From Streptomyces diastatochromogenes (GTDB lineage: Bacteria > Actinomycetota > Actinomycetes > Streptomycetales > Streptomycetaceae), in NCBI GenBank assembly GCA_026913215.1, contig JAPTYK010000001.1, positions 6,262,001 through 6,326,000 of the forward strand: a stretch of 64,000 bases of DNA, read 5' to 3'. Below the pieces are notes generated by a model. It made no database searches. It was not told the DNA's origin and saw only the letters and a program-made list of their open reading frames with translations. The position numbers were made by a program, and so were the translations under genes. Of this stretch, positions 3,395 to 36,762 are shown piece after piece. Positions within the stretch are counted from its first letter, which is position 1. The number at the start of each line of letters is the position of its first letter.

Positions 3395-5176
3395 GTGGCC
3401 GAGACCGTTCTCACCAACACCGGGCTCGACGGCTTCCTCGACGGAGCGCCCGAGCATCGTGACCCCGCGTTCGCGCGGGCCGCCGAAGCGGTCCTGGGGC
3501 TGCTCTGCGCTGCGCGGAGCGGACCGGGCGACGGGGCTGCCGGAGCCGACGCCGGGGCTCGTGCGGCAGCTGCTGGTCGAGGACCTGCCGACGTTCGTGT
3601 ACGCGCCGCCGGGGAGCTCGCCGCCTATCCGGCGGTCCTGGGGCGCTGGCGGCACGGTTCGACGGGGGCGCCGCGAGCGGATCGCCGGGGTGGTCGCCGA
3701 GTCCGCGCCCGACTTCGAACGGGCCATGAACGACCCGGGCAACCTCACCTGGCACCGCTGGTACGCCTCGCTCCTGCGGACCGTCGGCGCCGACCTCGCC
3801 GATCCCGAGGACGTACGGCGCAGGCTCGCCGCGCTCGACGGCGCACCGCTGCCGGACGGGGTGCACCGCGCCCACCTGATGGGCCGGACGGCCCTCGCGG
3901 ACGTCCTGCTGGCCGAGGCGCTCACGCACGCGTACGTACGGGACGCCGAGAAGCCCCCCGCCTCGGGGCCGCTGCTGACCGACCACGCCGTCGCGACCGG
4001 GATCGGGCGGCTCGCCGCCGCCCTCCAGGACCGCTGGACCGCCGCCGGGCTGGCCGAGCAGCTCGCCGGGCCGTACGCGCGGTTCGCGCCCGGACCCGAC
4101 GCCTTCCCGCACCTCGTCCTGGCCGACGCCCTCCTGGACGAGCACCTCGACTACTACGGGGACCCCGCCGCCCCCGCGCCCCCGCCGCCCGCGATCGAGA
4201 CCGGGCCCGTCGAGGAGGACGCCGACGCGCTCATCGCCGCCGTCGAGGAGCTGGCGGAGGAGGAGTTCGAGCCCTACGGGGCGAGGCTCCGCACCTGCTG
4301 TACGCGGTCTACCAGCGCGGCTGCTCCGCCGAGTCCGTCGCCCGCAAGGCCGCCGAGTACGAGGACTGGGCCGTCGACCCGGACCTGGAGGACCTGCCCG
4401 TCCCCGTACCGGACGCGGCGCCCGACGCGTACGCCGTCCCGCCGCTGAAGGAGCTCACGCGCCTCCTCGGCACGGCCGAGCCGACCGAGGACGACCGGGC
4501 CCGGCTCGAAGGACCGGCCCGCGACCTCGCCGCGGTCCTCGACCACCTCGCCGCCACCGGCCTGGTCTTCCGTACCGGGGACGCCTTCGGGCTCACTCCG
4601 CGCGGCGCGGGCGTCGTCCGCTACCTGCTCGGAGTGCGCGGGGTCGCCGCCCCGACGCCGCCGAGGCCCTCGCCTGGACCGCGCCGGACGTGGTCGCCGC
4701 CGCCGGGGGCTGGTCCGCGTCCGTCGCCGCGCGCGTGCTCGCCGACTGGCTCCACGCGCGCGTGGACACCGCCGACGCCTGGTCCCAGCTGCTCGCCGCC
4801 CTCGGCACCGTCCACGCCGGCACCGCCGAGGCGGCCGCCACCCGCGGTCTCTTCGCCGTCCTGGACACGGCCGAGGCGCCGCCCGAGGCCCTGCGGGGCG
4901 CCCTGCGCGACCCGGTCGTCGGCGCGTACGCCCTGGACGCCCTGCGGGACAGGAATGAGGAGGCGGACCCGATCCAGGTGCGGACCTCGGCCCGGGCCCT
5001 GCACGTCCTGGACGCGCTGCCCGCCAGAAGGGGCCCTGGAGTCCCGCCGCGCCGCCTTCGACGCGGCGGCTGCCGCCTGGCCCGGCGGTTCCGCCGCCCT
5101 GGTCCGCGCGATGGCCGCCGCGGACCGGCACGAGACCGAGCGGGTCCTCCGCCCGCTCGGCATCACCCTTCCGTGA
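3395..5176 (+). CDS. Large conserved hypothetical protein, several frameshifts
   Basis: The likely start is GTG 3395 (VAETVLTNTGLDGFLDGAPE). The reconstructed product is about 595 aa, acidic and helical, with no signal peptide or membrane segment. Clear stretches are AESAPDFERAMNDPGNLTWH with RWYASLLRTVG, an acidic stretch ETGPVEEDADALIAAVEELA, a winged-helix-like segment (AAVLDHLAATGLVFRTGDAF, then GLTPRGAGVVRYLLG), and a C-terminus LVRAMAAADRHETERVLRPL. Frame breaks fall near 3525, 3650, 4290, 4655 and 5030, mostly in C/G runs. The TGA stop lies in the first unit of a tandem repeat. I do not recognise the family. Confidence 0.55.
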   Translation: MAETVLTNTGLDGFLDGAPEHRDPAFARAAEAVLGLLCAARSGPGDGAAGADAGARAAAAGRGPADVRVRAAGELAAYPAVLGRWRHGSTGAPRADRRGGRRVRARLRTGHERPGQPHLAPLVRLAPADRRRRPRRSRGRTAQARRARRRTAAGRGAPRPPDGPDGPRGRPAGRGAHARVRTGRREAPRLGAAADRPRRRDRDRAARRRPPGPLDRRRAGRAARRAVRAVRARTRRLPAPRPGRRPPGRAPRLLRGPRRPRAPAARDRDRARRGGRRRAHRRRRGAGGGGVRALRGEAPHLLYAVYQRGCSAESVARKAAEYEDWAVDPDLEDLPVPVPDAAPDAYAVPPLKELTRLLGTAEPTEDDRARLEGPARDLAAVLDHLAATGLVFRTGDAFGLTPRGAGVVRYLLGVRGVAAPTPPRPSPGPRRTWSPPPGAGPRPSPRACSPTGSTRAWTPPTPGPSCSPPSAPSTPAPPRRPPPAVSSPSWTRPRRRPRPCGAPCATRSSARTPWTPCGTGMRRRTRSRCGPRPGPCTSWTRCPPEGALESRRAAFDAAAAAWPGGSAALVRAMAAADRHETERVLRPLGITLP

Positions 5177-25633: not shown

Positions 25634-26650
25634 GTGACCAGGCTTCGGACAGGAGGGTACGCGCCGCAGTCGGCGCCGTGCTCGCCCTCGCACTCACCGC
25701 GGCGCTCGCCGGGTGCAGCAGCACCGGCGGAAAGCGGGCGGAGGACGCCCGCAAGGCCGCCGAGGCCCAGGGCAGGGCGGTCGTCGACACCCCCCGGTGG
25801 ACCTTCGCCATGGTGACCCACTCGGGCGACGGCGACACCTTCTGGGACATCGTCCAGAAGGGCGCCAAGCAGGCCGCCGCCAAGGACAACATCAACTTCC
25901 TGTACGCCCACAACGACGAGGCGCAGCAGCAGGCGCAGCTGATCGACTCGTACGTCGCCAAGGGCGTCGACGGGCTCATCGTCACCCTCGCCAAGCCCGA
26001 CGCCATGAAGGCCGCCGTCGAGAAGGCCGTCAAGGCGGGCATCCCGGTGATCACCGTGAACTCGGGCGCCGAGCAGTCCAAGGCCTACGGGGCGCTCACC
26101 CACATCGGCCAGGACGAGACCGTCGCCGGCGAGGCCGTCGGCGAGGAGCTCGACAAGCGGGGCAAGAAGAAGGCCCTCTGCGTCCTGCACGAGCAGGGCA
26201 ACGTCGGCCACGAGCAGCGCTGCGCCGGAGTGAAGAAGACCTTCGACGGCGAGCTCGTGAACCTGTACGTCGACGGCACCAACATGCCCGACGTCAAGGC
26301 CTCCATCGAGGCCAAGCTCCAGTCCGACAAGGACGTCGACGCCGTCGTCACCCTCGGCGCCCCCTTCGCCGACACCGCCGTCCAGGCCGCGAAGAGCGCC
26401 GGCAGCAAGGCCGAGGTCGACACCTTCGACCTCAACGCCAAGGTCGCGACCGCCCTGGAGGCCGGCACCCTCGGCTTCGCCGTCGACCAGCAGCCCTACC
26501 TCCAGGGCTACGAGGCCGTCGACCTGCTCTGGCTCTACCGCTACAACGCCGACGTCCTCGGCGGCGGCAAGCCGGTCCTGACCGGCCCCAGATCATCACC
26601 AGGACCAGGCCGCCGCGCTGAAGCAGTACGCGGATCGGGGCACCCGATGA
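25634..26650 (+). CDS. Sugar ABC transporter substrate-binding lipoprotein, three frame breaks
   Basis: GTG 25634 with AAAGGAGGG ten bases upstream. Restoring a G near 25656 joins VTRLRTGG to VRAAVGAVLALALTAALAGC, a lipoprotein signal with lipobox LAGC. The periplasmic-binding-protein-like fold (RbsB group) shows FAMVTHSGDGDTFWDIVQKG, SYVAKGVDGLIVTLAKPDAM, GIPVITVNSGAEQSKAYGAL and HIGQDETVAGEAVGEELDKR. Losses near 26588 and 26604 separate the end [20 protein letters not shown]. 339 aa repaired. It delivers a sugar to the permease that follows with an ATGA overlap. Confidence 0.9.
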
Positions 26651-27702
26651 GCTCCACCGCCCCGCCGTCGGACGGCGTCGACCACGTCGACGAACGGCTC
26701 CTGCGCACCACCCCGCTGAAGAAGCTGCTCGCCCGCCCCGAGCTGGGCTCGGTCGTCGGCGCCGTCGCCGTCTTCGTCTTCTTCGCGGTGGTCGCCGACA
26801 GCTTCCTCAAGCCCTCCAGCCTCGGCACCGTCCTCTACGCGGCCTCCACCATCGGCATCATGGCCGTGCCCGTGGCCCTGCTGATGATCGGCGGCGAGTT
26901 CGACCTCTCCGCCGGCGTCCTGGTCACCAGCTCCGCGCTGGTCTCCTCGATGTTCAGCTACCAGATGACGGCGAACGTCTGGGTGGGCGTCGGCGTCTCG
27001 CTGCTCGTCACCCTGGCGATCGGCGTCTTCAACGGCTTCATGCTGACCCGCACCAAGCTGCCCAGCTTCATCATCACGCTCGGCACCTTCCTCATGCTGA
27101 CCGGCCTGAACCTGGGCCTCACCAAGCTGATCAGCGGCACCGTCTCCACCAAGACCATCGCCGACATGGAGGGCTTCTCCTCCGCCCGGAAGCTCTTCGC
27201 CTCCGAGGCGACGATCGGCGGCGTCGAGTTCAAGGTCACCATCCTGTGGTGGTTCGGCCTCGTCGCCCTCGCCACCTGGATCCTGCTCCGCACCCGCTTC
27301 GGCAACTGGATCTTCGCGGTCGGCGGCGGCGCCGACGCGGCCCGCGCGGTCGGCGTCCCCGTCTACCGCACGAAGATCGGCCTCTACATGGGCGTGGCCT
27401 TCTGCGCCTGGATCTCCGGCCAGCACCTGCTGTTCTCCTTCGACGTCGTCCAGTCGGGCGAAGGCGTCGGCAACGAGCTGATCTACATCATCGCGGCCGT
27501 CATCGGCGGCTGCCTGATCACCGGCGGATACGGCTCGGCCATCGGCTCGGCGGTCGGCGCCCTCATCTTCGGCATGACCAGCAAGGGCATCGTGTACGCC
27601 GAGTGGAACCCCGACTGGTTCAAGTTCTTCCTGGGGGCGATGCTCCTCCTCGCGACCCTGCTGAACGCCTGGATCCGCAAGCGCGTGGAGGCGACCAAGT
27701 GA
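26647..27702 (+). CDS. Sugar ABC transporter permease (RbsC family)
   Basis: Intact 351 aa, start overlapping the binding-protein stop. Eight to ten membrane segments, including [38 protein letters not shown] (the conserved GGEFDLS motif), [38 protein letters not shown] and [17 protein letters not shown]. It forms the channel for the sugar importer. GTGA overlap with the ATPase gene indicates translational coupling. Confidence 0.94.
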
Positions 27703-28491
27703 CCACGGAGACCGCTCCGCTCGTCGAGCTGACCGACGTCAGCAAGTACTACGGCAACATCCGCGCCCTCGAAGGGGTCTCCTGGAGGTCCGCGCGGGCG
27801 AGATCTCCTGCGTCCTCGGCGACAACGGCGCCGGCAAGTCCACCCTCATCAAGATCGTCGCCGGGCTCCACCGGCACGACGCCGGCACCTTCCGCATCGA
27901 GGGCGAGGAGGTCACCCTCGCCAATCCGCGCGACGCCCTCGACCGGGGCATCGCCACCGTCTACCAGGACCTCGCCGTCGTCCCCCTCATGCCGGTCTGG
28001 CGGAACTTCTTCCTCGGCTCCGAGCCCACCAGGGCAAGGGCCCCTTCAAGCGGCTCGACGTCGAGCTGATGCGCACCACCACCCGCGAGGCCCTGCTCCG
28101 CATGGGCATCGACCTCCGGGACGTCGACCAGCCCATCGGCACCCTCTCCGGCGGCGAGCGCCAGTGCGTGGCCATCGCCCGCGCCGTCCACTTCGGCGCC
28201 AAGGTCCTCGTCCTCGACGAGCCGACCGCCGCGCTCGGCGTCAAGCAGTCCGGCGTCGTCCTGAAGTACGTCGCGGCCGCCCGTGACGAGGGCCTCGGCG
28301 TGGTCCTCATCACGCACAACCCGCACCACGCCTACCTCGTCGGCGACCGCTTCGTCCTCCTCAAGCGGGGCGCGATGGCGGCGAGCCACACCAAGGACTC
28401 CGTCACCCTCGACGAGTTGACCCGGCAGATGGCGGGCGGCAGCGAGCTGGAGGACCTGCGCCACGAGCTGGAGCGCCCGAGCGGCACGTAA
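27699..28491 (+). CDS. Sugar ABC transporter ATP-binding protein (single-domain), two frame breaks
   Basis: GTG 27699, [20 protein letters not shown]. Walker [11 protein letters not shown]-loop [16 protein letters not shown], signature [20 protein letters not shown], Walker [14 protein letters not shown], switch [10 protein letters not shown]. Missing bases at about 27781 (CTCCTGG for CTCCCTGG) and about 28031 (ACCAGGGCAAG). Repaired 264 aa; a single nucleotide-binding domain, unlike the two-domain RbsA/MglA proteins, so it probably acts as a homodimer. Third gene of the operon. Confidence 0.92.
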
Positions 28492-28527
28492 CGGCCCCTT
28501 GACACCCCACCTGGCAGAATCGAGCCG

Positions 28528-29695
28528 ATGAGTACCTACCGTGACCTCGCGCACCGGGGAGCCGCCCGCGGGACCGTGCTGCGGACCGTCGGGACCCGGG
28601 AGCGGCGCTCCCACCTGACGGCGCCCCGCGTGCCGACCGTCGGCATCGACATCGGCGGTACGAAGGTGATGGCCGGCGTCGTCGACGCCGACGGCAACAT
28701 CCTGGAGAAGCTCCGCACGGAGACCCCGGACAAGTCCAAGAGCCCCAAGGTCGTCGAGGACACCATCGTCGAGCTGGTCCTCGACCTCTCCGACCGGCAC
28801 GACGTGCACGCCGTCGGCATCGGCGCGGCCGGCTGGGTCGACGCCGACCGGGCCCGGGTCCTCTTCGCCCCGCACCTCGCCTGGCGCAACGAGCCCCTCC
28901 GCGACGCCCTCCAGGGCCGCCTGGCCGTCCCCGTCATGGTCGACAACGACGCCAACACCGCGGCCTGGGCCGAGTGGCGCTTCGGCGCCGGACGCGGCGA
29001 GGACCACCTCGTCATGATCACCCTCGGCACCGGCATCGGCGGCGCCATCCTGGAGGACGGCCAGGTCAAGCGGGGCAAGTTCGGCGTCGCCGGGGAGTTC
29101 GGCCACATGCAGGTCGTCCCCGGCGGCCACCGCTGCCCTGCGGCAACCGCGGCTGCTGGGAGCAGTACAGCTCCGGGAACGCGCTGGTCCGCGAGGCCCG
29201 CGAGCTGGCCGCCGCCGACTCCCCGGTCGCGTACGGGATCATCGAGCGGGTCAGGGGAACGTCCCCGACATCACCGGCCCCCTCATCACCGAGCTCGCCC
29301 GCGAGGGCGACGCCATGTGCGTGGAGCTGCTCCAGGACATCGGCCAGTGGCTCGGCGTCGGCATCGCCAACCTCGCCGCCGCCCTCGACCCCTCCTGCTT
29401 CGTCATCGGCGGGGGCGTCTCCGCCGCCGACGACCTGCTCATCGGCCCCGCGCGGGACGCCTTCCGCCGCCACCTCACCGGCCGCGGCTACCGCCCCGAG
29501 GCCCGCATCGTCCGCGCCCAGCTCGGCCCCGAGGCCGGCATGGTCGGCGCCGCCGACCTCGCGCGGCTCGTCGCCCGCCGCTTCCGCCGTGCCAACCGGC
29601 GCCGCGTCGAGCGCTACGAACGGTACGAGCGCTACGCCCAGGCCCTGCGCAGCGGGACCCCGGGCCGGACCGCGCGCACCCCGAGGACCCCCTTC
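28528..29695 (+). CDS. ROK-family sugar kinase (glucokinase-like), frameshifted
   Basis: ATG 28528; an Arg-rich extension of about 35 aa precedes the first conserved block PTVGIDIGGTKVMAGVVDAD (phosphate-binding). HDVHAVGIGAAGWVDADRAR and VPVMVDNDANTAAWAEWRFG (substrate Asn-Asp) follow, then MITLGTGIGGAILEDG (second phosphate loop). The ROK zinc motif is GHMQVVPGGHRCPCGNRGCW, recovered by adding a C at about 29137. Another G is missing near 29255. FVIGGGVSAADDLLI is the adenosine motif. The Arg/Tyr-rich tail VERYERYERYAQ reads straight into the next membrane-protein frame with no stop, so the 3' end is uncertain. It phosphorylates an imported hexose in the cytosol; genetic linkage to the importer supports this. 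Confidence 0.88.
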
Positions 29696-30274
29696 ATGAG
29701 CCTGCCCCACCCGTCCAGCCCGCCCCGCACACCGCGGGACAAACTGCCCGAGGACCGCCGGCACATGATCCGCCGCCGCTGGCTGACGGCCGTCATCATC
29801 GTGCTCCTCGTCGGCATCCCGGCCGGCTACCTCGTCATCTCCGCGGGCCAGAGCCGCGACAGCGGCCGCGACAAGGAACGCGAGTCCTCGGCGGCCGGGC
29901 TCCAGGACAACTGGCCCTCCCTGATGAAGCGCCGCGTCTTCGAGATCCCGATCCCCGGCGGCGCCTGGGACGTCGCCTACTACGAGACCAGCAACTGGAA
30001 GACCAGCCGCCTGTACGTCCAGTTCACGACGACCGCCGGCGGCCTCGACGCCTTCCTCGCCGAGTCCGGCACCGCCCGCTCCGCGCTCACCTCCGGCCGG
30101 ATCACCGTCGGCGAGCGCGACGCCGACATCGCCGGCTGGACCTTCGCCGACGACACCACCTGGGCCGGCACCGTCGTCACCCGCGAGCAACCGCGCCCCC
30201 GCACCGACATCACCGTCGACCTCACCGACCCCGCCTTCCCCCGGGTGTACGCGGTCTCCGCGACCAGCCCCTGA
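29696..30274 (+). CDS. Single-pass membrane protein of unknown function
   Basis: ATG 29696 with GAGGA upstream. A Pro-rich cytosolic tail, an Arg-rich anchor (DRRHMIRRRWLTA), one transmembrane helix VIIVLLVGIPAGYLVIS and an extracytoplasmic domain with AWDVAYYETSNWKTSRLYVQ and DIAGWTFADDTTWAGTVVTR. 192 aa. In the sequence as given it is in frame with the ROK kinase, so either the two are one fused protein or two bases are missing near 29650-29665 and the kinase stops at TGA 29697-29699. The extracytoplasmic domain is not one I can name. Confidence 0.7.
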   Translation: MSLPHPSSPPRTPRDKLPEDRRHMIRRRWLTAVIIVLLVGIPAGYLVISAGQSRDSGRDKERESSAAGLQDNWPSLMKRRVFEIPIPGGAWDVAYYETSNWKTSRLYVQFTTTAGGLDAFLAESGTARSALTSGRITVGERDADIAGWTFADDTTWAGTVVTREQPRPRTDITVDLTDPAFPRVYAVSATSP

Positions 30275-30287
30275 GCCGACCGGCGCG

Positions 30288-30302
30288 TTCCACTCCGTGG
30301 AC
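30288..30302. promoter_or_regulatory. Inverted repeat upstream of the methionine leader (TTCCAC-N3-GTGGAC)
   Basis: TTCCACTCCGTGGAC at 30288-30302 has a perfect 13-base core (TCCACTCCGTGGA). It differs by one base in its arms from the perfect TTCCAC-N3-GTGGAA box before allB. It lies about 29 bp upstream of the -10 box, where a repressor or activator could act. Whether the same regulator binds is untested. Confidence 0.4.
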
Positions 30303-30330
30303 GGGTGGTGGCGGAGCCTCCGGGGGGTGC

Positions 30331-30343
30331 TATGGTCCCGTCC
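30331..30343 (+). promoter_or_regulatory. -10 box for leaderless leader transcript
   Basis: TATGGT (30331-30336) lies seven bases before ATG 30344. The spacing predicts transcription starting at the leader-peptide start codon. No good TTGACN -35 is present 17 bp upstream. Confidence 0.5.
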
Positions 30344-30409
30344 ATGCAGCAGACCGCCACCCTCGCCATGATGCGAATGATGCCCCGATACTCGGAGGCG
30401 CTTCGCTAG
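30344..30409 (+). CDS. Met-rich 21-aa leader peptide (candidate attenuator)
   Basis: ATG 30344 to TAG 30407-30409, 21 codons. Five of 21 residues are Met; four lie in the five-codon run M-M-R-M-M (30368-30382), separated by a CGA codon that is rare in high-GC genomes. The start lies 7 bases after a -10 box, so it can be translated as a leaderless message. The stop codon lies in the loop of a 6-bp hairpin (GCTTCG/CGAAGC, 30400-30415). A terminator follows 26 bases after the stop. The downstream genes deal with SAM and amino-acid uptake. It is too short for domain analysis; the role as a methionine sensor is inferred from this architecture. Confidence 0.7.
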   Translation: MQQTATLAMMRMMPRYSEALR

Positions 30410-30446
30410 CGAAGCCGTGCGCGCACAGGATGCGACGGACCCTCCG
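30393..30446 (+). promoter_or_regulatory. Candidate antiterminator of the Met leader
   Basis: CGGAGG (30393-30398), inside leader codons 17-19, is complementary to CCTCCG (30441-30446), the inner part of the terminator's 5' arm, with one extra U-G pair. Pairing would block the terminator. A ribosome stalled on the Met codons ending at 30382 leaves 30393-30398 free. A ribosome that reaches the stop at 30407 covers it. This is the geometry of classical attenuation. Confidence 0.6.
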
Positions 30447-30467
30447 GAAACGGAGGGTCCGTTTTTT
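30435..30467 (+). terminator. Intrinsic terminator in the leader of the SAM hydrolase operon
   Basis: ACGGACCCTCCG (30435-30446) pairs perfectly with 30451-30462 around a GAAA tetraloop and ends in a six-T run (30462-30467). Such a canonical U-tract terminator is uncommon in high-GC genomes. It lies 46 bases before the start of the SAM hydrolase gene, so it must be read through for expression. Confidence 0.9.
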
Positions 30468-30512
30468 GTTGCCCTCGTTCGACAGAACCTCCACAGAAGG
30501 CGAAGAACCGCC

Positions 30513-31348
30513 ATGACCCGTCCACCGGTCGTCTCCCTCACCGACTGCGCCGACGCCAACGCGCTGGCCCGGCAGTCCACCCGTATCGCCACCCTGTTCG
30601 GTGCCACGCCGACCGTCCTGCCGCTGACGGGACCGGACCCGGAGGGCGCCGCCGCCCTCACCCTGCTCGACCTGCTGCGCTCCACGGACCTGATCGGCGG
30701 CCCGACGCAGCCCGTGGTGGTCCTGGTGAACATCGCGCCGCGGGACGGGCACTGGCCGAACGGCGTGCCGTTCTGCTGGTTCCGGCACGGGGAGCACCTG
30801 GTCATCAGCACGCTGAACCACCGGGTCCTCGCCCCGCTGGCGGCCTACCTGGGCCTGGAGGAGGTGCACGTCACCGACGTCCGCGAGGTGCTGGAGGCGC
30901 GGCCGAGGGCTGGGCCGAGCTGGCGCCGGCCGAGGTGGAGGAGATGGTGCGGACCCAGTTCCGCAGCCTGTGGTACGTGCCGCTGCTGGCCCGCTGGCTG
31001 GCGGACGGCCGCGAGGTTCCCGCGCGGACGCAGGCGGTGGAGCCGCCCGTCGCGCGCGAGGTGCGGGTCGCGGTCGTGGACAACTTCGGCAACTGCAAGC
31101 TGGACCTGCCGGCCGTCGAACTGCCCGGCTACGACGGCGCGAAGGGCCTGTTCGTGCACAACCGGCACGAGGGCCGCGACGTCGAGGTGCGATGTTACGA
31201 CCGGCTCCCCGACGTCCCCTACGGCGAGCCCGGAATCACGGTCGGAAGCTCCGGTGTCGGCTTCGCCGAACTGGTGGTCCGCGGCGGTTCCGCGGCCGAC
31301 GTGTTCGGTCTGCACCAGGGCGACCAGGTGTTCGATCTCACCAGCTGA
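30513..31348 (+). CDS. SAM hydrolase / SAM hydroxide adenosyltransferase (DUF62 family), one frame break
   Basis: ATG 30513 with ACAGAAGG upstream. N-terminal domain: VVSLTDCADANALARQSTRI, VVVLVNIAPRDGHWPNGVPF, HLVISTLNHRVLAPLAAYLG. C-terminal domain: VAVVDNFGNCKLDLPAVELP (the D-x-FGN motif), GLFVHNRHEGRDVEV and GFAELVVRGGSAADVFGLHQ. These fit the DUF62 family, whose members cleave SAM with hydroxide to adenosine and methionine, or with halide. One base is missing near 30900 (GAGGCGCGGCCG). About 278 aa. The first enzyme gene after the attenuator, it would release methionine from SAM, fitting a response to methionine shortage. Halogenase activity is unlikely without secondary-metabolism neighbours. 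Confidence 0.8.
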
Positions 31349-31398
31349 TATCTCTATCTCACGTCCCTTTTCCCGGACCTCTCCCGAAGGACCCCCCG

Positions 31399-32273
31399 AT
31401 GTCCCGTACCCGCATAGCCCTGGCGGCGTCCGCCGCCTCCGCCGTCGTCCTGGCGGCGGCCGCCTGCGCGCCCCAGCCGCAGAGCACCACCCCGGCGCGG
31501 CCGGTTCCGCCAAGGCCGCCGACTGCACGACCGGCAGCCCGAGCCTCCACAAGCCCGGTCAGCTGACCGTCGCGACGGACTCCCCGGCGTACGAGCCGTG
31601 GTTCGACAGCAACACCCGTCCAACGGCAAGGGCTTCGAGGCGCGGTGGCCTACGCGGTGGCCGGGAAGCTGGGCTTCGCGAAGGACCAGGTGAAGTGGGT
31701 CGTCGAGCCCTTCGCGCACTCCTACGCGCCGGGGGCGAAGTCCTACGACTTCGACATCAACCAGATCTCCATCACCCCGCAGCGCGCCAAGGCCGTCGAC
31801 TTCTCCAGCAGCTACTACACGGCCGACCAGGCCGTCCTGACGCTGAAGGACTCGAAGTTCGCCAAGGCCACGTCCCTGAGCGACTTCAAGGACGCCAAGA
31901 TCGGCGTGCAGGTGGCGACGACCAGCTACCAGGCCGTCCTGGAGCGGCTGAAGCCCTCGCAGAAGCCGAGCGTCTTCAACACCACCAAGGACGAGGTCAC
32001 CGCGCTGACGAACGGGCAGATCGACGCGATCGTCACCGACACGCCCACCGTCTTCTACCTGGCGGCGCCGAGCTGGACAACGGGAAGATCGTCGGCCAGT
32101 TCGGCTACGCGGGCGGCACCCCGGAGGAGTTCGGCCTGCTCCTGCCGAAGGGCAGCGGATACACCTCCTGCGTCGACAAGGCCCTGAGCGCCCTCAAGGC
32201 CGACGGGACCCTCGCCAAGCTGACCGAGCAGTGGCTGTCCGCCTCGGCGAACGTCCCCGAGCTGAAGCAGTAA
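31399..32273 (+). CDS. Amino-acid ABC transporter substrate-binding lipoprotein, frameshifted
   Basis: ATG 31399, GAAGGA upstream. Lipoprotein signal IALAASAASAVVLAAAACAP. The family 3 solute-binding fold shows PGQLTVATDSPAYEPWFDSN, GFEAAVAYAVAGKLGF, SYDFDINQISITPQRAKAVD, FSSSYYTADQAVLTL and a C-terminal LKADGTLAKLTEQWLSA. Frame losses near 31498, 31612, 31643 and 32070 are single bases; repaired about 292 aa. Position after the methionine leader suggests methionine or a related amino acid as ligand, but the protein belongs to the polar amino-acid family, not the NlpA/MetQ family, so this is inference. Confidence 0.87.
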
Positions 32274-32283
32274 CGGGCCGACA

Positions 32284-33174
32284 GTGGAACTCACCAAGAC
32301 GGCCGTGCCGACGTCACCGGACGACGACGCCCACCGGCCCAGCGACCACGAGCTGGAGCGCCGGCGCTTCCGCCGCTCCCGACGCCGCCGCCACACCTGG
32401 ATCTCCGCCCTGTGCACCGTCCTCGCCCTGGTGGCGGTGGGAGCGGCCGCGGTCTCCTCGCCGGGCTGGGAGCGCGTCGACAGCCTGTTCCTCGACGGCG
32501 CCGAGCTGCGCGCCGCGTTCCCCGAACTCCTGCGGGGCTTCTGGCTCAACATCCAGATGTTCCTCGTCGCCGAGGTGCTGATCCTCGTCCTGGGGCTGCT
32601 CATCGCCCTGGTGCGGGTGACCAGGGCGCCGGGCCTCCAGCCGCTGCGGCTCGCCGCGACCGTGTACGTGGACGTCTTCCGGGGCGTCCCGACGCTGCTG
32701 CTCGTCTTCCTCGTCGGCTTCGGGCTCCCCGCCCTCCAGCTCCAGGGCACCCCCACCCAGCCCTGGGTGCTCGGAGTGATCGCCCTGGTCCTGTCCTACG
32801 CCGCCTACGTCGGCGAGGTGTTCCAGGCGGGGCTGAACTCGGTCCACCCCGCGCAGCGCAACGCCGCGCGGGCCCTGGGGCTCAACCAGCGGCAGACCCT
32901 GCGGCACGTGGTCCTGCCGCAGGCGGTGCGCAACGTCGTCCCGCCGCTGCTCAACGACTTCATCGCGCTGCAGAAGGACACCGCGCTCGTCGCCGTCCTC
33001 GGCCCGCTGGAGGCGCTGCGGGCGGCGCAGATCAAGGCCGACTACGACTTCAACTACACCCCGTACCTGGGAGCGGCTCTCTTGTTCATCGCGGTGACCA
33101 TTCCGCTGACCCGCTTCGCCGACCGGCTCCAGCGGCGGGCCGCGCAGCGCACCTGGGCGGAGACGGGCCGATGA
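32284..33174 (+). CDS. Amino-acid ABC transporter permease (HisM/GlnP type)
   Basis: Intact 296 aa from GTG 32284, 10 bases after the binding-protein stop. A charged N-terminal tail (HELERRRFRRSRRRR) precedes about six membrane helices. The conserved EAA loop is YVGEVFQAGLNSVHPAQRNA followed by ARALGLNQRQTLRHVVLPQA. LNDFIALQKDTALVAVLGPL is a typical polar amino-acid permease segment. TGA overlaps the ATPase start (ATGA at 33171). Confidence 0.92.
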   Translation: MELTKTAVPTSPDDDAHRPSDHELERRRFRRSRRRRHTWISALCTVLALVAVGAAAVSSPGWERVDSLFLDGAELRAAFPELLRGFWLNIQMFLVAEVLILVLGLLIALVRVTRAPGLQPLRLAATVYVDVFRGVPTLLLVFLVGFGLPALQLQGTPTQPWVLGVIALVLSYAAYVGEVFQAGLNSVHPAQRNAARALGLNQRQTLRHVVLPQAVRNVVPPLLNDFIALQKDTALVAVLGPLEALRAAQIKADYDFNYTPYLGAALLFIAVTIPLTRFADRLQRRAAQRTWAETGR

Positions 33175-33912
33175 ACCAGCCACTCCTGCGCATCCGGGGC
33201 GTCCGCAAGCAGTACGGCTCGCGCCTGGTCCTGCGCTCGATCGACCTGGACGTCGCCGAGCACCAGGTCGTCTGCCTCATCGGCGGCTCCGGCTCGGGCA
33301 AGTCCACCCTGCTGCGCTGCGTGGACCTCCTGGAGGTCGTCGACGACGGCACCGTCCACCTGGGCGACAGCGAGCTGACCGACCCGCGCCTGGACCCCGA
33401 CGTCGCCCGCCGGCGCATCGGCATCGTCTTCCAGGCCTACAACCTGTTCCCGCACCTGAGCGTGCTGGACAACATCACGCTCGCGCCCCGCCAGGTCCAC
33501 GGCGTCCCCGCAGGCAGGCCGAGGCGCGGGCCCTGGAACTGCTGGACCGGCTCGGCCTCGCGGACAAGGCGCGGGAGCACCCCGACCGGCTGTCCGGCGG
33601 CCAGCAGCAGCGCGCCGCCATCGCCCGCGCCCTGGCCACCGAACCCGAGCTGCTGCTCTTCGACGAGATCACCTCGGCCCTCGACCCCGAACTGGTCGGC
33701 GAGGTCCTGGACGTCGTCGCGGACCTCAAGCAGCGCGGCCTGACCATCCTGATGGCCACCCACGAGATGGACTTCGCCCGGCAGGTCGCCGACCGGGTCT
33801 GCTTCCTGGAGAACGGCGTCATCGTGGAACAGGGCACCGCGGAGCAGGTCCTCACCGCCCCCGCGAGCAGGCCACCCGGCGCTTCCTCGCCCGCGCGCTC
33901 GACCGCTCCTAG
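33171..33912 (+). CDS. Amino-acid ABC transporter ATP-binding protein, two frame breaks
   Basis: ATG 33171 (MNQPLLRIRGVRKQYGSRLV). Walker A GGSGSGKST, Q-loop VFQAYNLFPHLSVLDNITLA, signature LSGGQQQRAAIARALATEPE, Walker B LLLFDEITSALDPE, switch ATHEMDFARQVADRV. One G is missing at about 33513 (GCAGGCAGG for GCAGGGCAGG) and another base near 33865. Repaired 247 aa. Note DEITSALD in place of the usual DEPTSALD. Last gene of the putative methionine-attenuated operon; a hairpin follows. Confidence 0.92.
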
Positions 33913-33919
33913 ACCGGGC

Positions 33920-33937
33920 CTCCCGGCCCGCCGGGAG
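33920..33937. terminator. Hairpin after the amino-acid ABC operon
   Basis: CTCCCGGC (33920-33927) pairs with GCCGGGAG (33930-33937) around a minimal CC spacer, eight bases after the ATPase stop. No T run. Plausible terminator. Confidence 0.5.
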
Positions 33938-34003
33938 CTGCGGGAAACCGCCGGGGGCGACCCGGCGCCGTGCGGGAGGGCGGGAGATGAGAGGGTCTTG
34001 CGG

Positions 34004-35256
34004 GTGAGCGAGACACCGACGAACACCCTGCAATACCGTGTCGACGGGCGTGAGGACGCCCCGGTCCTGGTCCTGGGACCGTCCCTCGGTACGACCTTCC
34101 ACATGTGGGACCGGCAGATCCCGGAGCTCGTCCGGGAGTGGCGGGTCGTCCGCTTCGACCTCCCGGGGCACGGAGGCGCGCCCGCGGAGCCCTTCACCTC
34201 CGTCGCCGAGCTCGGCGACCGGCTCCTCGCCACGCTGGACGCGCTCGGCGTCCAGCGCTTCGGCTACGCGGGCTGCTCCTCGGCGGCGCCGTGGGCCTCG
34301 ACCTGGCCCTGCGCGCCCCCACCGGGTCGCCTCCCTCGCCCTGGTCGCCACCTCGCCCCGGTTCGGCACCGCCGACGAGTTCCGCCAGCGCGGGGTCATC
34401 GTCCGGGCCAACGGTCTGGAGCCGATGGCCCGCGCCGCCCCCGAGCAGTGGTTCACGCCGTTCTTCGCCGGCGCGCAGCCCGCCATCGTCGACTGGGCCG
34501 TCCAGATGGTCCGGACGACCGACCCGGCCTGCTACATCGCGGCCTGCGAGGCCCTCGCCGTCTTCGACGTCCGCGGGGCCCTCGGCAACATCGGCATCCC
34601 CGCCCTGGTCCTCGTCGGCTCCGAGGACCAGGTCACCGGCCCGCCGAGGCCCGCACCCTGGTCGCCGGCATCGCCGACGCCCGGCTCGCCGTCGTCCCCG
34701 GCGCCTCGCACCTCGCCCCCGTCGAGCAGCCCGCCGCCGTCACGGACCTGCTCACCGAGCACTTCTCCAGCATCGCCCAGGAGACCGGCGGCCTGGCCGT
34801 GCCGCCGCCGCCCGCGCCGCCCGTCCCCGCCGCCGAGCCCGCCCCGGCCGCCCCGGAGGCCGAGCCCGCCGAGGCCGGCCGGCCCGACCCGTACGAGAAG
34901 GGGCTCGGGCTGCGCCGCGAGATCCTCGGCGACGCCCATGTCGACCAGGCCCTCGCCGACGACCCCGACGGGGCCTTCCAGGAGCTCGTCACCCGCTACG
35001 CCTGGGGCGAGGTGTGGAGCCGCGAGGGGCTCGACCGGCGCACCCGCAGCGTCGTCACCCTCACCGCCCTGATCGCCGGGGGCCACCGGGAGGCCCTCGC
35101 CGACCACACCCGCGCCGCCCTGCGCAACGGCCTCTCGCCCGAGGAGCTCCGCGAGATCGTCCTCCACGCGGGCGCGTACTGCGGCTTCCCCGCCGCGGAG
35201 ACGGCGCTGCGGGTGATCACCCGAGTCGTCGCGGAGGAGACGACGCCCCCGCGTGA
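34004..35256 (+). CDS. PcaD-PcaC fusion: 3-oxoadipate enol-lactonase / 4-carboxymuconolactone decarboxylase, frameshifted
   Basis: GTG 34004 (VSETPTNTLQYRVDGREDAP). The N-terminal alpha/beta hydrolase (PcaD) has VLGPSLGTTFHMWDRQIPEL, VVRFDLPGHGGAPAEPFTS, a nucleophile elbow GCSLGGAVG recovered by adding a base near 34280, and PGASHLAPVEQPAAV with the His. A Pro/Ala linker (about 34796-34890) leads to the PcaC domain: YEKGLGLRREILGDAHVDQA, EVWSREGLDRRTRSVVTLTA, LSPEELREIVLHAGAYCGFP. Such PcaL fusions act in the protocatechuate branch of the beta-ketoadipate pathway; no other pca gene is in the window. As read, the frame runs to 35314. One missing C in ACGCCCCCGCGTGA would end it at TGA 35256 (AEETTPPA), the more typical C-terminus. 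Confidence 0.88.
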
Positions 35257-35298
35257 GGACCTGCCCTTCGGATCCGGCCCGATCCGGAGGGCAGGCCC

Positions 35299-35311
35299 TA
35301 GCCTGGCCCCA
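35299..35311 (+). promoter_or_regulatory. Leaderless -10 box of the MBL-fold gene
   Basis: TAGCCT (35299-35304), then six bases, then ATG 35311. A separate promoter here supports an earlier end for the PcaD-PcaC gene. Confidence 0.45.
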
Positions 35312-35943
35312 TGAAGCTGACGAAGAAGTCCCACGCCTGTGTGCGGCTGGAGAAGGACGGCCGCACGCTCGTCCTCGACCCCGGCATGTTCACCGAGGAG
35401 GACGCCGTCCTCGGGGCCGACGCGCTGCTCGTCACCCACGAGCACGCCGACCACTTCGACGAGGGCCGGCTGCGGGCCGCCCTGGACGCCAACCCGGCCG
35501 CCGAGATCTGGACGCTGCGCAGCGTCGCCGACAAGATCTCGGCGGCCTTCCCGGGACGGGTGCACACCGTCGGGCACGGCGATACCTTCACGGCGGCCGG
35601 TTTCGACGTCCAGGTCCACGGCGAGCTGCACGCGGTGATCCACCCGGACATCCCGCGCATCACCAACGTGGGCTATCTCGTCGACGGCGCCGTCTTCCAC
35701 CCCGGCGACGCGCTCACCGTGCCCGACCAGCCCGTCGACACGCTGCTGCTGCCCGTCATGGCCCCCTGGAACAAGATCTCCGAGGTCATCGACTACGTGC
35801 GCGAGGTGGGGCCGCGCCGGGCGTACGACATCCACGACGCCCTGCTCACCGACCTCGCCCGGCCCCTCTACGACCGCCAGATCGGCGAGCTCGGCGGCAC
35901 GGACCACCGGCGGCTGTCCTCCGGCACCTCCGCCGAGGTGTGA
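35311..35943 (+). CDS. Metallo-beta-lactamase-fold hydrolase (UlaG-like)
   Basis: Intact 210 aa. MKLTKKSHACVRLEKDGRTL, then VLDPGMFTEEDAVLGADALL. The metal site is VTHEHADHFDEG, the HxHxDH motif of the fold, with later His in GELHAVIHPDIP and Asp in VFHPGDALTVPDQPVD. LLLPVMAPWNKISEVIDYVR and AYDIHDALL resemble the UlaG/YtnP-like group of metal-dependent hydrolases. Substrate unknown. It lies between the pca fusion and xthA, each with its own -10 box. Confidence 0.88.
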   Translation: MKLTKKSHACVRLEKDGRTLVLDPGMFTEEDAVLGADALLVTHEHADHFDEGRLRAALDANPAAEIWTLRSVADKISAAFPGRVHTVGHGDTFTAAGFDVQVHGELHAVIHPDIPRITNVGYLVDGAVFHPGDALTVPDQPVDTLLLPVMAPWNKISEVIDYVREVGPRRAYDIHDALLTDLARPLYDRQIGELGGTDHRRLSSGTSAEV

Positions 35944-35969
35944 CCGCGCCGACTGTCACACCCCGCCAG

Positions 35970-35983
35970 TAGGCTTGCGCCCA
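35970..35983 (+). promoter_or_regulatory. Leaderless -10 box of xthA
   Basis: TAGGCT (35970-35975), seven bases before ATG 35983, between the MBL-fold stop (35943) and xthA. Confidence 0.45.
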
Positions 35984-36762
35984 TGCGCATCGCCACCTGG
36001 AACGTCAATTCGATCACCGCCCGGCTGCCCCGGCTCCTGGCCTGGCTGGAGAGCAGCGGCACCGACGTGCTGTGCATCCAGGAGACCAAGTGCGCCGCCG
36101 AGCAGTTCCCCTTCGAGGAGCTGCGCGCCCTGGGCTACGAGGCGGCGGTCAACGCCACGGGCCGGTGGAACGGCGTGGCCCTGATCTCCCGGGTCGGCCT
36201 CGCGGACGTGGTCACCGGGCTGCCCGGCGGCCCGGAGTACGACGGCTCGACGGAGCCCCGGGCGGTCTCCGCGACCTGCGGCCCGGTCCGCGTCTGGTCG
36301 GTGTACGTGCCGAACGGCCGCGAGGTGGCCCACGAGCACTACGCGTACAAGCTGCGCTGGCTGGAGGCGCTCAAGGCGGCCGTCGCCCAGGACGCGGCGG
36401 GGGACCGCCCCTTCGCGGTCCTCGGCGACTACAACATCGCCCCGGCCGACGAGGACGTCTGGGACGTCTCCGTCTTCGAGGGCGCCACGCACGTGACGGA
36501 GCCGGAGCGGGCCGCGCTCGCCGCGCTCCGCGAGACCGGCCTCGCGGACGTGGTGCCGCGCCCCCTCAAGTACGACCACCCCTTCACGTACTGGGACTAC
36601 CGCGCGCTCGGCTTCCCGAAGAACAAGGGCATGCGCATCGACCTGGTCTACGGGAACAAGTCCTTCGCCGAGGCGGTCTCCGACAGCTATGTGGACCGCG
36701 AGGAGCGCAAGGGCAAGGGCGCCTCGGACCACGCCCCGGTCGTCGTCGACCTCGACGTCTGA
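35983..36762 (+). CDS. xthA: Exodeoxyribonuclease III
   Basis: Intact 259 aa. It acts in base-excision repair as an AP endonuclease and 3'-5' exonuclease. The EEP-fold motifs are MRIATWNVNSITARLPRLL, catalytic Glu in LCIQETKCAAE (about residue 34), VYVPNGREV, FAVLGDYNIAP (Asp-Asn pair), GMRIDLVYGN and a C-terminal KGASDHAPVVVDL with catalytic Asp-His. The length matches bacterial ExoIII/XthA. Confidence 0.95.
   Translation: MRIATWNVNSITARLPRLLAWLESSGTDVLCIQETKCAAEQFPFEELRALGYEAAVNATGRWNGVALISRVGLADVVTGLPGGPEYDGSTEPRAVSATCGPVRVWSVYVPNGREVAHEHYAYKLRWLEALKAAVAQDAAGDRPFAVLGDYNIAPADEDVWDVSVFEGATHVTEPERAALAALRETGLADVVPRPLKYDHPFTYWDYRALGFPKNKGMRIDLVYGNKSFAEAVSDSYVDREERKGKGASDHAPVVVDLDV

Follow-up and report, generated by a model that had tools for sequence, protein, structure and literature searches.

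A likely methionine-sensing transcription attenuator upstream of divergent DUF62-like genes in actinomycetes, with similar leaders at Patescibacteria-type loci

Methionine genes are known mainly for control by riboswitches or repressors. For other amino acids, the attenuators of trp, leuS, ilvB and trpS in Actinobacteria combine a leader peptide carrying regulatory codons with an antiterminator and a GC-rich terminator followed by poly-U (PMC1262725). The leader described here has the same components, and differs in that the known examples sense Trp, Leu, Ile or Val, whereas Met is the proposed signal here. Seliverstov et al. (2005) found no conserved RNA structure before methionine operons in Actinobacteria (PMC1262725). 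Leader peptides with Met codons have themselves been proposed before. In Streptomyces lividans, the leader peptide metL precedes metNIQ (PMC8079986). Like the frame examined here, it is leaderless, contains Met codons and lies ahead of a methionine gene in a Streptomyces; it differs in its sequence (MSTTSDRTPATEATTTPGARCMCRRMCAF), in its scattered Met and Cys codons and in its target, and its authors found no typical Rho-independent terminator (PMC8079986). In C. jejuni, MetL and CJsORF19 (MMYQMR) are likewise small frames rich in Met, for which a role in regulating Met genes has been proposed (PMC11955535). These small frames have ribosome-profiling signal, and CJsORF19 precedes a D-methionine transport gene (PMC11955535), but they belong to another phylum and have another target, and no antiterminator is described in the relevant sections of that work (PMC11955535). 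Our searches of the open-licence PMC literature, which leaves subscription papers largely outside, found no description of such a Met-codon attenuator family. An initial annotation of the present locus had stated that no well-described Met-peptide attenuator was known, a statement that the S. lividans and C. jejuni predictions qualify. As for the enzyme family involved, why cells need DUF62 enzymes, which hydrolyse SAM to its precursors, has been unexplained (PMC12120602).

We examined a leader within a stretch of 64,000 nucleotides from Streptomyces diastatochromogenes, hereafter the window. Its elements and the genes that follow are listed below, with the basis for each in brackets.

30331..30336, + strand: -10 box TATGGT, proposed for leaderless transcription of the leader frame (sequence)
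30344..30409, + strand: upstream open reading frame (uORF) reading MQQTATLAMMRMMPRYSEALR and then a stop, 21 residues (translation; start and core frame kept in 49/49 leaders)
30368..30382, + strand: Met core ATG ATG CGA ATG ATG, the proposed stalling codons (sequence)
30382..30399, + strand: region 1:2 hairpin GCCCCGA...TCGGAGGC, able to hide region 2 (MFE fold)
30392..30398, + strand: region 2, TCGGAGG, the 5′ half of the antiterminator (pairs with 30441-30447)
30400..30415, + strand: small hairpin GCTTCGCTAGCGAAGC, nested inside the antiterminator (sequence, folds)
30422..30434, + strand: second nested hairpin CGCA-CAGGA-TGCG (one covarying pair)
30435..30467, + strand: intrinsic terminator, perfect 12 bp with GAAA loop and T6 (sequence, fold)
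30513..31348, + strand: DUF62-like (SAM hydrolase fold) gene (tblastn with the intact relative L008; Pfam PF20257 on L008; predicted fold)
31399..32273, + strand: solute-binding protein (SBP_bac_3) of an amino-acid ABC importer (tblastn; Pfam on the L008 copy)
32284..33174, + strand: importer permease (ORF, tblastn, Pfam on the L008 copy)
33172..33912, + strand: importer ATPase (tblastn; Pfam on the L008 copy)

In the window, TATGGT is followed after 7 nt by the ATG at 30344, and the TAG stop of the uORF (30407-30409) sits in the loop of the small hairpin. The terminator reads ACGGACCCTCCG-GAAA-CGGAGGGTCCGT at 30435-30462, with T6 at 30462-30467; its 5′ arm (30435-30446) constitutes region 3. 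CGGAGG at 30393-30398 is the exact complement of CCTCCG at 30441-30446, within that arm. These elements, from the -10 box and 21-codon frame to the terminator and the CGGAGG/CCTCCG pairing, held base by base as given in the initial annotation, apart from the distance to the next gene: the ATG at 30513 lies 45 nt past the T run rather than 46. The leader RNA (30338-30475) beat all 200 of 200 dinucleotide shuffles in folding (z -4.65), and folds of the whole leader without translation predict the terminator. Separately, the 5′ codons of the uORF at 30349-30354 have a potential pairing partner at or beyond the end of the frame (30419-30424). This pairing is GCACAC/GUGUGC in most Streptomycetaceae, is weakened in the window and is CGCCGC/GCGGCG in Kribbella; it may possibly close an untranslated leader.

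The reading that we favor, and consider likely, is that this leader is a methionine-sensing, ribosome-mediated transcription attenuator of the trp/his type. The case rests on sequence, conservation, reading frame, modelled pairings, association with one gene family and Met-related neighbours. Transcription, translation and the change in termination are inferred, without RNA or expression data; in the absence of expression data, methionine as the signal, through charging of Met-tRNA, is likewise only inferred. According to this model, transcription would start at or beside the uORF start codon. When the supply of charged elongator tRNA-Met falls short, the leading ribosome would wait on the Met core, covering region 1 and leaving region 2 open to pair with the emerging region 3, so that no terminator would form and the DUF62-like gene, plus the importer in the window, would be transcribed. 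When Met is plentiful, the ribosome would instead reach the stop and cover or pass region 2, and regions 3 and 4 would form the terminator. The DUF62-like gene would thus likely be switched on when methionine runs short. Two weak points attach to this scheme. Because the uORF needs initiator Met-tRNA, severe Met starvation may leave it untranslated. Furthermore, the region 1:2 hairpin is not the best fold in every relative, and stalls before the core would therefore also antiterminate in some of them.

A single scan of 84,980 species genomes yielded 63 loci of the DUF62-like gene, 42 in actinomycetes and 21 elsewhere. The Met run, whose presence in orthologous leaders had been proposed as a check, recurs as the core TGCGAATG[A/C]TG upstream of 41 of the 42 actinomycete loci; the sole exception, L022, has no core and also lacks the 5′ half of its gene. 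The search pattern itself contained CGA, and one of the 42 loci (L022) failed it. Together with loci from whole-genome searches, the scan provided 49 distinct leaders including the window (23 Streptomycetaceae, 2 Actinospica, 12 Kribbella, 11 Jiangella and 1 Catellatospora). All 49 have TAnnnT 6-8 nt before the start codon, 47 of them at exactly 7 nt, which fits the earlier claim of leaderless transcription, with the 5′ end itself remaining inferred. A search of each of the three frames ahead of the core for TAnnnT, 6-8 nt and ATG/GTG gave 49 occurrences in frame and none out of frame, with start-to-core lengths of 18, 21, 24, 27 and 30 nt. The stop position, a second proposed check, is also kept: it lies 26-41 nt past the core in 48/49 leaders. 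The exception is L017, whose frame runs on following a base change; several genes at the locus are broken in that genome.

The number of internal Met codons is four in 28 of the 49 leaders, five in 7 (one being L017), three in 1, two in 12 and one in 1. Met runs are extended in places, to MMM in Actinospica and MMMM in Jiangella asiatica, and Kribbella leaders carry just two internal Met codons (one in L036). TTTT follows the hairpin in 40/49 leaders; 7 of the 9 without it are from Kribbella (7/12). Outside the Met core, the sequence changes beyond recognition between the five actinomycete groups, while within Streptomycetaceae and Actinospica the RNA is nearly invariant, with a mean column identity of 89%. 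All actinomycete leaders found use the rare CGA as the spacer codon of the core (30374-30376 in the window); CGA makes up 6/159 Arg codons in a small sample from window and L008 genes. It may possibly slow the ribosome at the decision point.

Outside actinomycetes, the 21 scan loci are mostly from Patescibacteria, with hydrolase identities of 28-37%. Adding four new loci from 295 genomes of the phylum of L059 gives 25 non-actinomycete homologues, of which 15 have a Met-rich uORF before the gene in the same layout, with terminators. At the scan loci these frames contain MMRMM (L067), MMMMMMRMM (L066), MMMGMM (L059), MMMVMM (L062), MMMEMM (L063), MSMMHMM (L064), MMSMSMM (L065), MMSMTMM (L069), MEMM (L061), MFMIMGM (L056), MMM (L060) and MYM (L055), and three of the four new loci add MMM (L109), MMMAMMM (L112) and MYM (L110). 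Because the residue between the Met codons varies here (R, G, E, V, H, S, T or A), the Met codons are what the leaders share. The starts of these Patescibacteria-type uORFs were picked by eye, partly by a -10 box that is common by chance in AT-rich DNA; TAnnnT lies 5-9 nt before the chosen start in 10/15. Their Met content of 21% proves nothing alone, since they were picked for Met-richness; the fixed-rule search described below serves as the unbiased control. The other ten of the 25 loci (L048-L054, L057, L068 and L111) have no such leader. Among those with neighbours listed, several lie close behind a gene on the same strand, and L048, which has a Met-rich frame (MMAMS...) without a terminator, was scored as lacking a leader.

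Each group has a segment, some 19-28 nt past the start of the core, that is similar to the 3′ arm of the terminator and can pair with the 5′ arm. These region 2:3 pairs, assigned partly by eye, are CGGAGG/CCUCCG in Streptomycetaceae, CGGGAGGACUUC/GAGAGGCCCCCG in Kribbella, GUGCGG/CCGCAC in Jiangella and UCGGGA/UCCCGA in Catellatospora. Region 2 is invariant apart from its first pair in the 23 aligned sequences, with equivalents in the other clades. We modelled the effect of a ribosome by masking the RNA up to its leading edge at P+15 and folding the remainder to the terminator loop. The P+15 position is a value from E. coli. Region 3 pairs with region 2 at a mean of 0.63-0.81 across the five actinomycete groups when the last core codon occupies the A site; two codons later the value is 0.07-0.51, and at offset 35 it is 0.00-0.04, with a slower drop in Kribbella and Catellatospora. 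This pattern is kept for leading edges from P+12 to P+18, the boundary moving by about a codon. In the 15 Patescibacteria-type leaders, modelled pairing at the last Met is 0.71-1.00, including two leaders with hand-set arms.

Compared with shuffled spacers, this pairing is significant in combination (Fisher p = 0.0009 over the five actinomycete clade medians). For the 15 Patescibacteria-type leaders the Fisher value is 9e-14, changing to 2e-10 with automatic arms and to 2e-11 without the two hand-set loci; these values treat the loci as independent. The two loci are L061 and L065, for which automatic detection of the terminator had picked different arms, giving p 0.75 and 0.995; we then set the arms by hand. 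Single leaders are often no better than shuffles (p 0.01-0.24 in actinomycetes, 0.363 for L063 and 0.104 for L056). Plain duplex-energy shuffles are indecisive (p 0.003-0.78, highest in Kribbella), and when regions 2 and 3 were swapped between clades, a clade's own pair was not always the best. We therefore regard an antiterminator that excludes the terminator and is opened by a ribosome on the Met codons as a prediction of the model, its significance often weak in individual sequences.

Covariation in the alternative stems had been proposed as a further check, and here support is limited. The antiterminator is predicted in the five actinomycete groups and the 15 Patescibacteria-type leaders, but region 2:3 shows no covariation in the 23 Streptomycetaceae/Actinospica sequences, as its pairs hardly vary there. 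One pair of the nested hairpin at 30422-30434 does covary in this set (GC in 16/23 sequences, AU in 5/23). Across divergent clades, RNAalifold detected little covariation. The 3′ arm of the terminator tolerates G.U in L021 and L024, where regions 2 and 3 stay unchanged. Taken with the conserved Met run and stop position, the comparison supports the Met-attenuator reading of the initial annotation and extends it well beyond Streptomyces, with Met-tRNA charging still an inference.

The leader is closely tied to this one gene. Under a fixed rule (a short frame with at least three ATG in five codons and a terminator within 110 nt) applied to the 63 loci, all 32 matches fell at the leader of the DUF62-like gene (25/42 actinomycete and 7/21 other loci), with none elsewhere in 775,806 nt, a total over the two strands. 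A covariance model trained on leaders of Streptomycetaceae/Actinospica, without Jiangella, recovered five Jiangella leaders in the class sample, and its five strong matches in 295 Streptomyces genomes were the five hydrolase-bearing genomes. Weak matches of this model without a nearby Met core occurred in 2/7 genomes of the genus search (L081, L082) and 8/14 of the class search (L083, L086, L087, L089, L091-L094); we take these to be chance. The hydrolase itself is sparse, being found in 5/295 Streptomyces genomes, 1/396 of the phylum sample (the window's own), 13/394 of the class sample and 5/295 genomes from the phylum of L059. A plasmid search found nothing.

We considered and rejected a wider regulon. 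In 14 Patescibacteria-type genomes, ATGATGNNNATGATG occurs at 31 places, 30 of which were made into loci; motif frames with a terminator satisfied the strict rule in five of these, all of them hydrolase leaders (L116, L120, L130, L133 and L141). In the window's own genome, TGCGAATGMTG occurs at four places, and the other three showed no similar leader by eye, without a formal test. ATGATGNNNATG occurs at hundreds of places in seven actinomycete genomes, which were not individually assessed.

The gene under putative control is probably a divergent relative of the DUF62 enzymes. Pfam SAM_HAT_C (PF20257) matched L008 (E 1.5e-10) and 16/16 members of the homologue set A4, while SAM_HAT_N (PF01887) had no match in the Pfam scans of L008 and the homologues or in the window's genome. 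An AlphaFold2 model of the protein (pLDDT 88.3) gave 2zbv as its best match in a PDB structure search (E 3.9e-13, TM 0.65), and all 33 of 33 matches with E <= 0.001 were DUF62 SAM hydrolases, chlorinases or fluorinases. On the basis of these matches, SAM hydrolysis is the likely function. The predicted fold is thus shared with the DUF62/(R,S)-SAM hydrolases (PMC12120602), from which the protein differs in that Pfam sees only its C-terminal domain and identity is 12-22%; the (R)-SAM hydrolase model scored 19.4 bits, far under its 350-bit cut-off. Activity is undemonstrated and the catalytic residues are unmapped. For the DUF62-type hydrolase of the initial annotation, the predicted fold and the C-terminal domain held, and release of methionine from SAM is inferred.

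The operon of hydrolase and importer proposed alongside it held in part: among the loci examined, the constant target is the DUF62-like gene, with the importer behind it in Streptomycetaceae and Actinospica (L028) alone. The importer's nearest named families are those for Lys/Arg/Orn, cystine and glutamine, with most scores under the cut-off, and its substrate is undetermined; the binding protein resembles the Lys/Arg/Orn family TIGR01096 at 92.8 bits (cut-off 256). A further point, absent from the initial annotation, is that in this assembly the frame of the hydrolase is interrupted around 30899-30920, and the binding protein and ATPase are frameshifted relative to intact relatives, falling into three and two tblastn pieces. 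These frameshifts are likely assembly indels; the completeness figure of the assembly is 88.96%. Further genes at 26000-36000 of the window also appear split in the ORF list.

Two loci place the hydrolase beside Met-related genes. In L066, a Parcubacteria MAG with the leader MMMMMMRMM, metG (3424-4896; TIGR00398, 448.8 bits, cut-off 336) begins 27 nt after the hydrolase, akin to the tRNA-synthetase targets trpS and leuS of the Streptomyces attenuators (PMC1262725). In L034, from Catellatospora tritici, metK (3595-4770; TIGR01034) begins 183 nt after the hydrolase, a gap that makes a single transcript uncertain.

We weighed three rival explanations. If the stall came from the rare arginine codon CGA, or from slow translation, the Met codons would be incidental. 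The presence of CGA in every actinomycete leader despite its apparent rarity (a small sample) speaks for this possibility, as does the resemblance of the binding protein to the Lys/Arg/Orn type. However, the spacer varies outside actinomycetes, with Arg in only some leaders (CGG in L066, CGT in L067); the Met runs are shared and extended, and metG and metK are neighbours. We consider this explanation very improbable, and arginine as the main signal was rejected on the variation of the spacer residue. The nascent Met-rich peptide might instead be an arrest peptide, responding to SAM, Met or some other small molecule and acting through the same antiterminator. The spacing between the Met core and region 2 would suit any stall at the core, and the downstream enzyme family acts on SAM, but the residues that flank the Met codons are entirely different from one clade to another. 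Known arrest peptides are not like this, and this alternative also seems to us highly doubtful.

Another possibility is a riboswitch that binds SAM or Met, with a reading frame overlapping its aptamer by chance. It would account for the near-invariant RNA in Streptomycetaceae/Actinospica, and SAM riboswitches do control Met genes elsewhere. Against it, the frame is kept through length changes, and the RNA is unrelated between clades while the Met codons persist. Neither a SAM riboswitch nor any other Rfam family matched the window and nine relatives at gathering score, the only matches being at chance level (E up to 5). We consider this explanation extremely unlikely.

The distribution of the leader permits a bolder form of the attenuator reading, in which a single Met-starvation attenuator has stayed with, or travelled with, a divergent DUF62 enzyme in both Actinomycetota and Patescibacteria, and marks that enzyme as one of Met salvage from the cell's own or scavenged SAM. 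We could argue for or against this with equal force. On a tree of 35 proteins, the leader label needs 3 changes versus 8.2 in shuffles (0/500 as low); the actinomycetes form one branch (96/90), and the loci lacking a leader are mostly Microgenomates-type. One origin with losses, two origins and transfer cannot be distinguished from this protein tree. If the bolder reading is true, SAM hydrolases would have one physiological reason, and the leader would be a sensor of elongator Met-tRNA that itself needs Met-tRNA to begin translation, raising the question of how it gauges the Met-tRNA supply. A Met-codon attenuator across two phyla would add a sensing mode for methionine genes, and would be an amino-acid-specific control device in Patescibacteria, where regulation is little known. 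Induction of the DUF62-like gene in Met shortage would offer one answer, directly testable for this subfamily, to the question of why such enzymes are needed.

Two further homologues outside actinomycetes have unusual features. In L052, from a Patescibacteria MAG, a second SAM_HAT_C protein (3480-4301) directly follows the hydrolase. The homologue at L111 (genome G1063) reads through 12 TGA codons; such read-through is expected of a lineage that recodes TGA.
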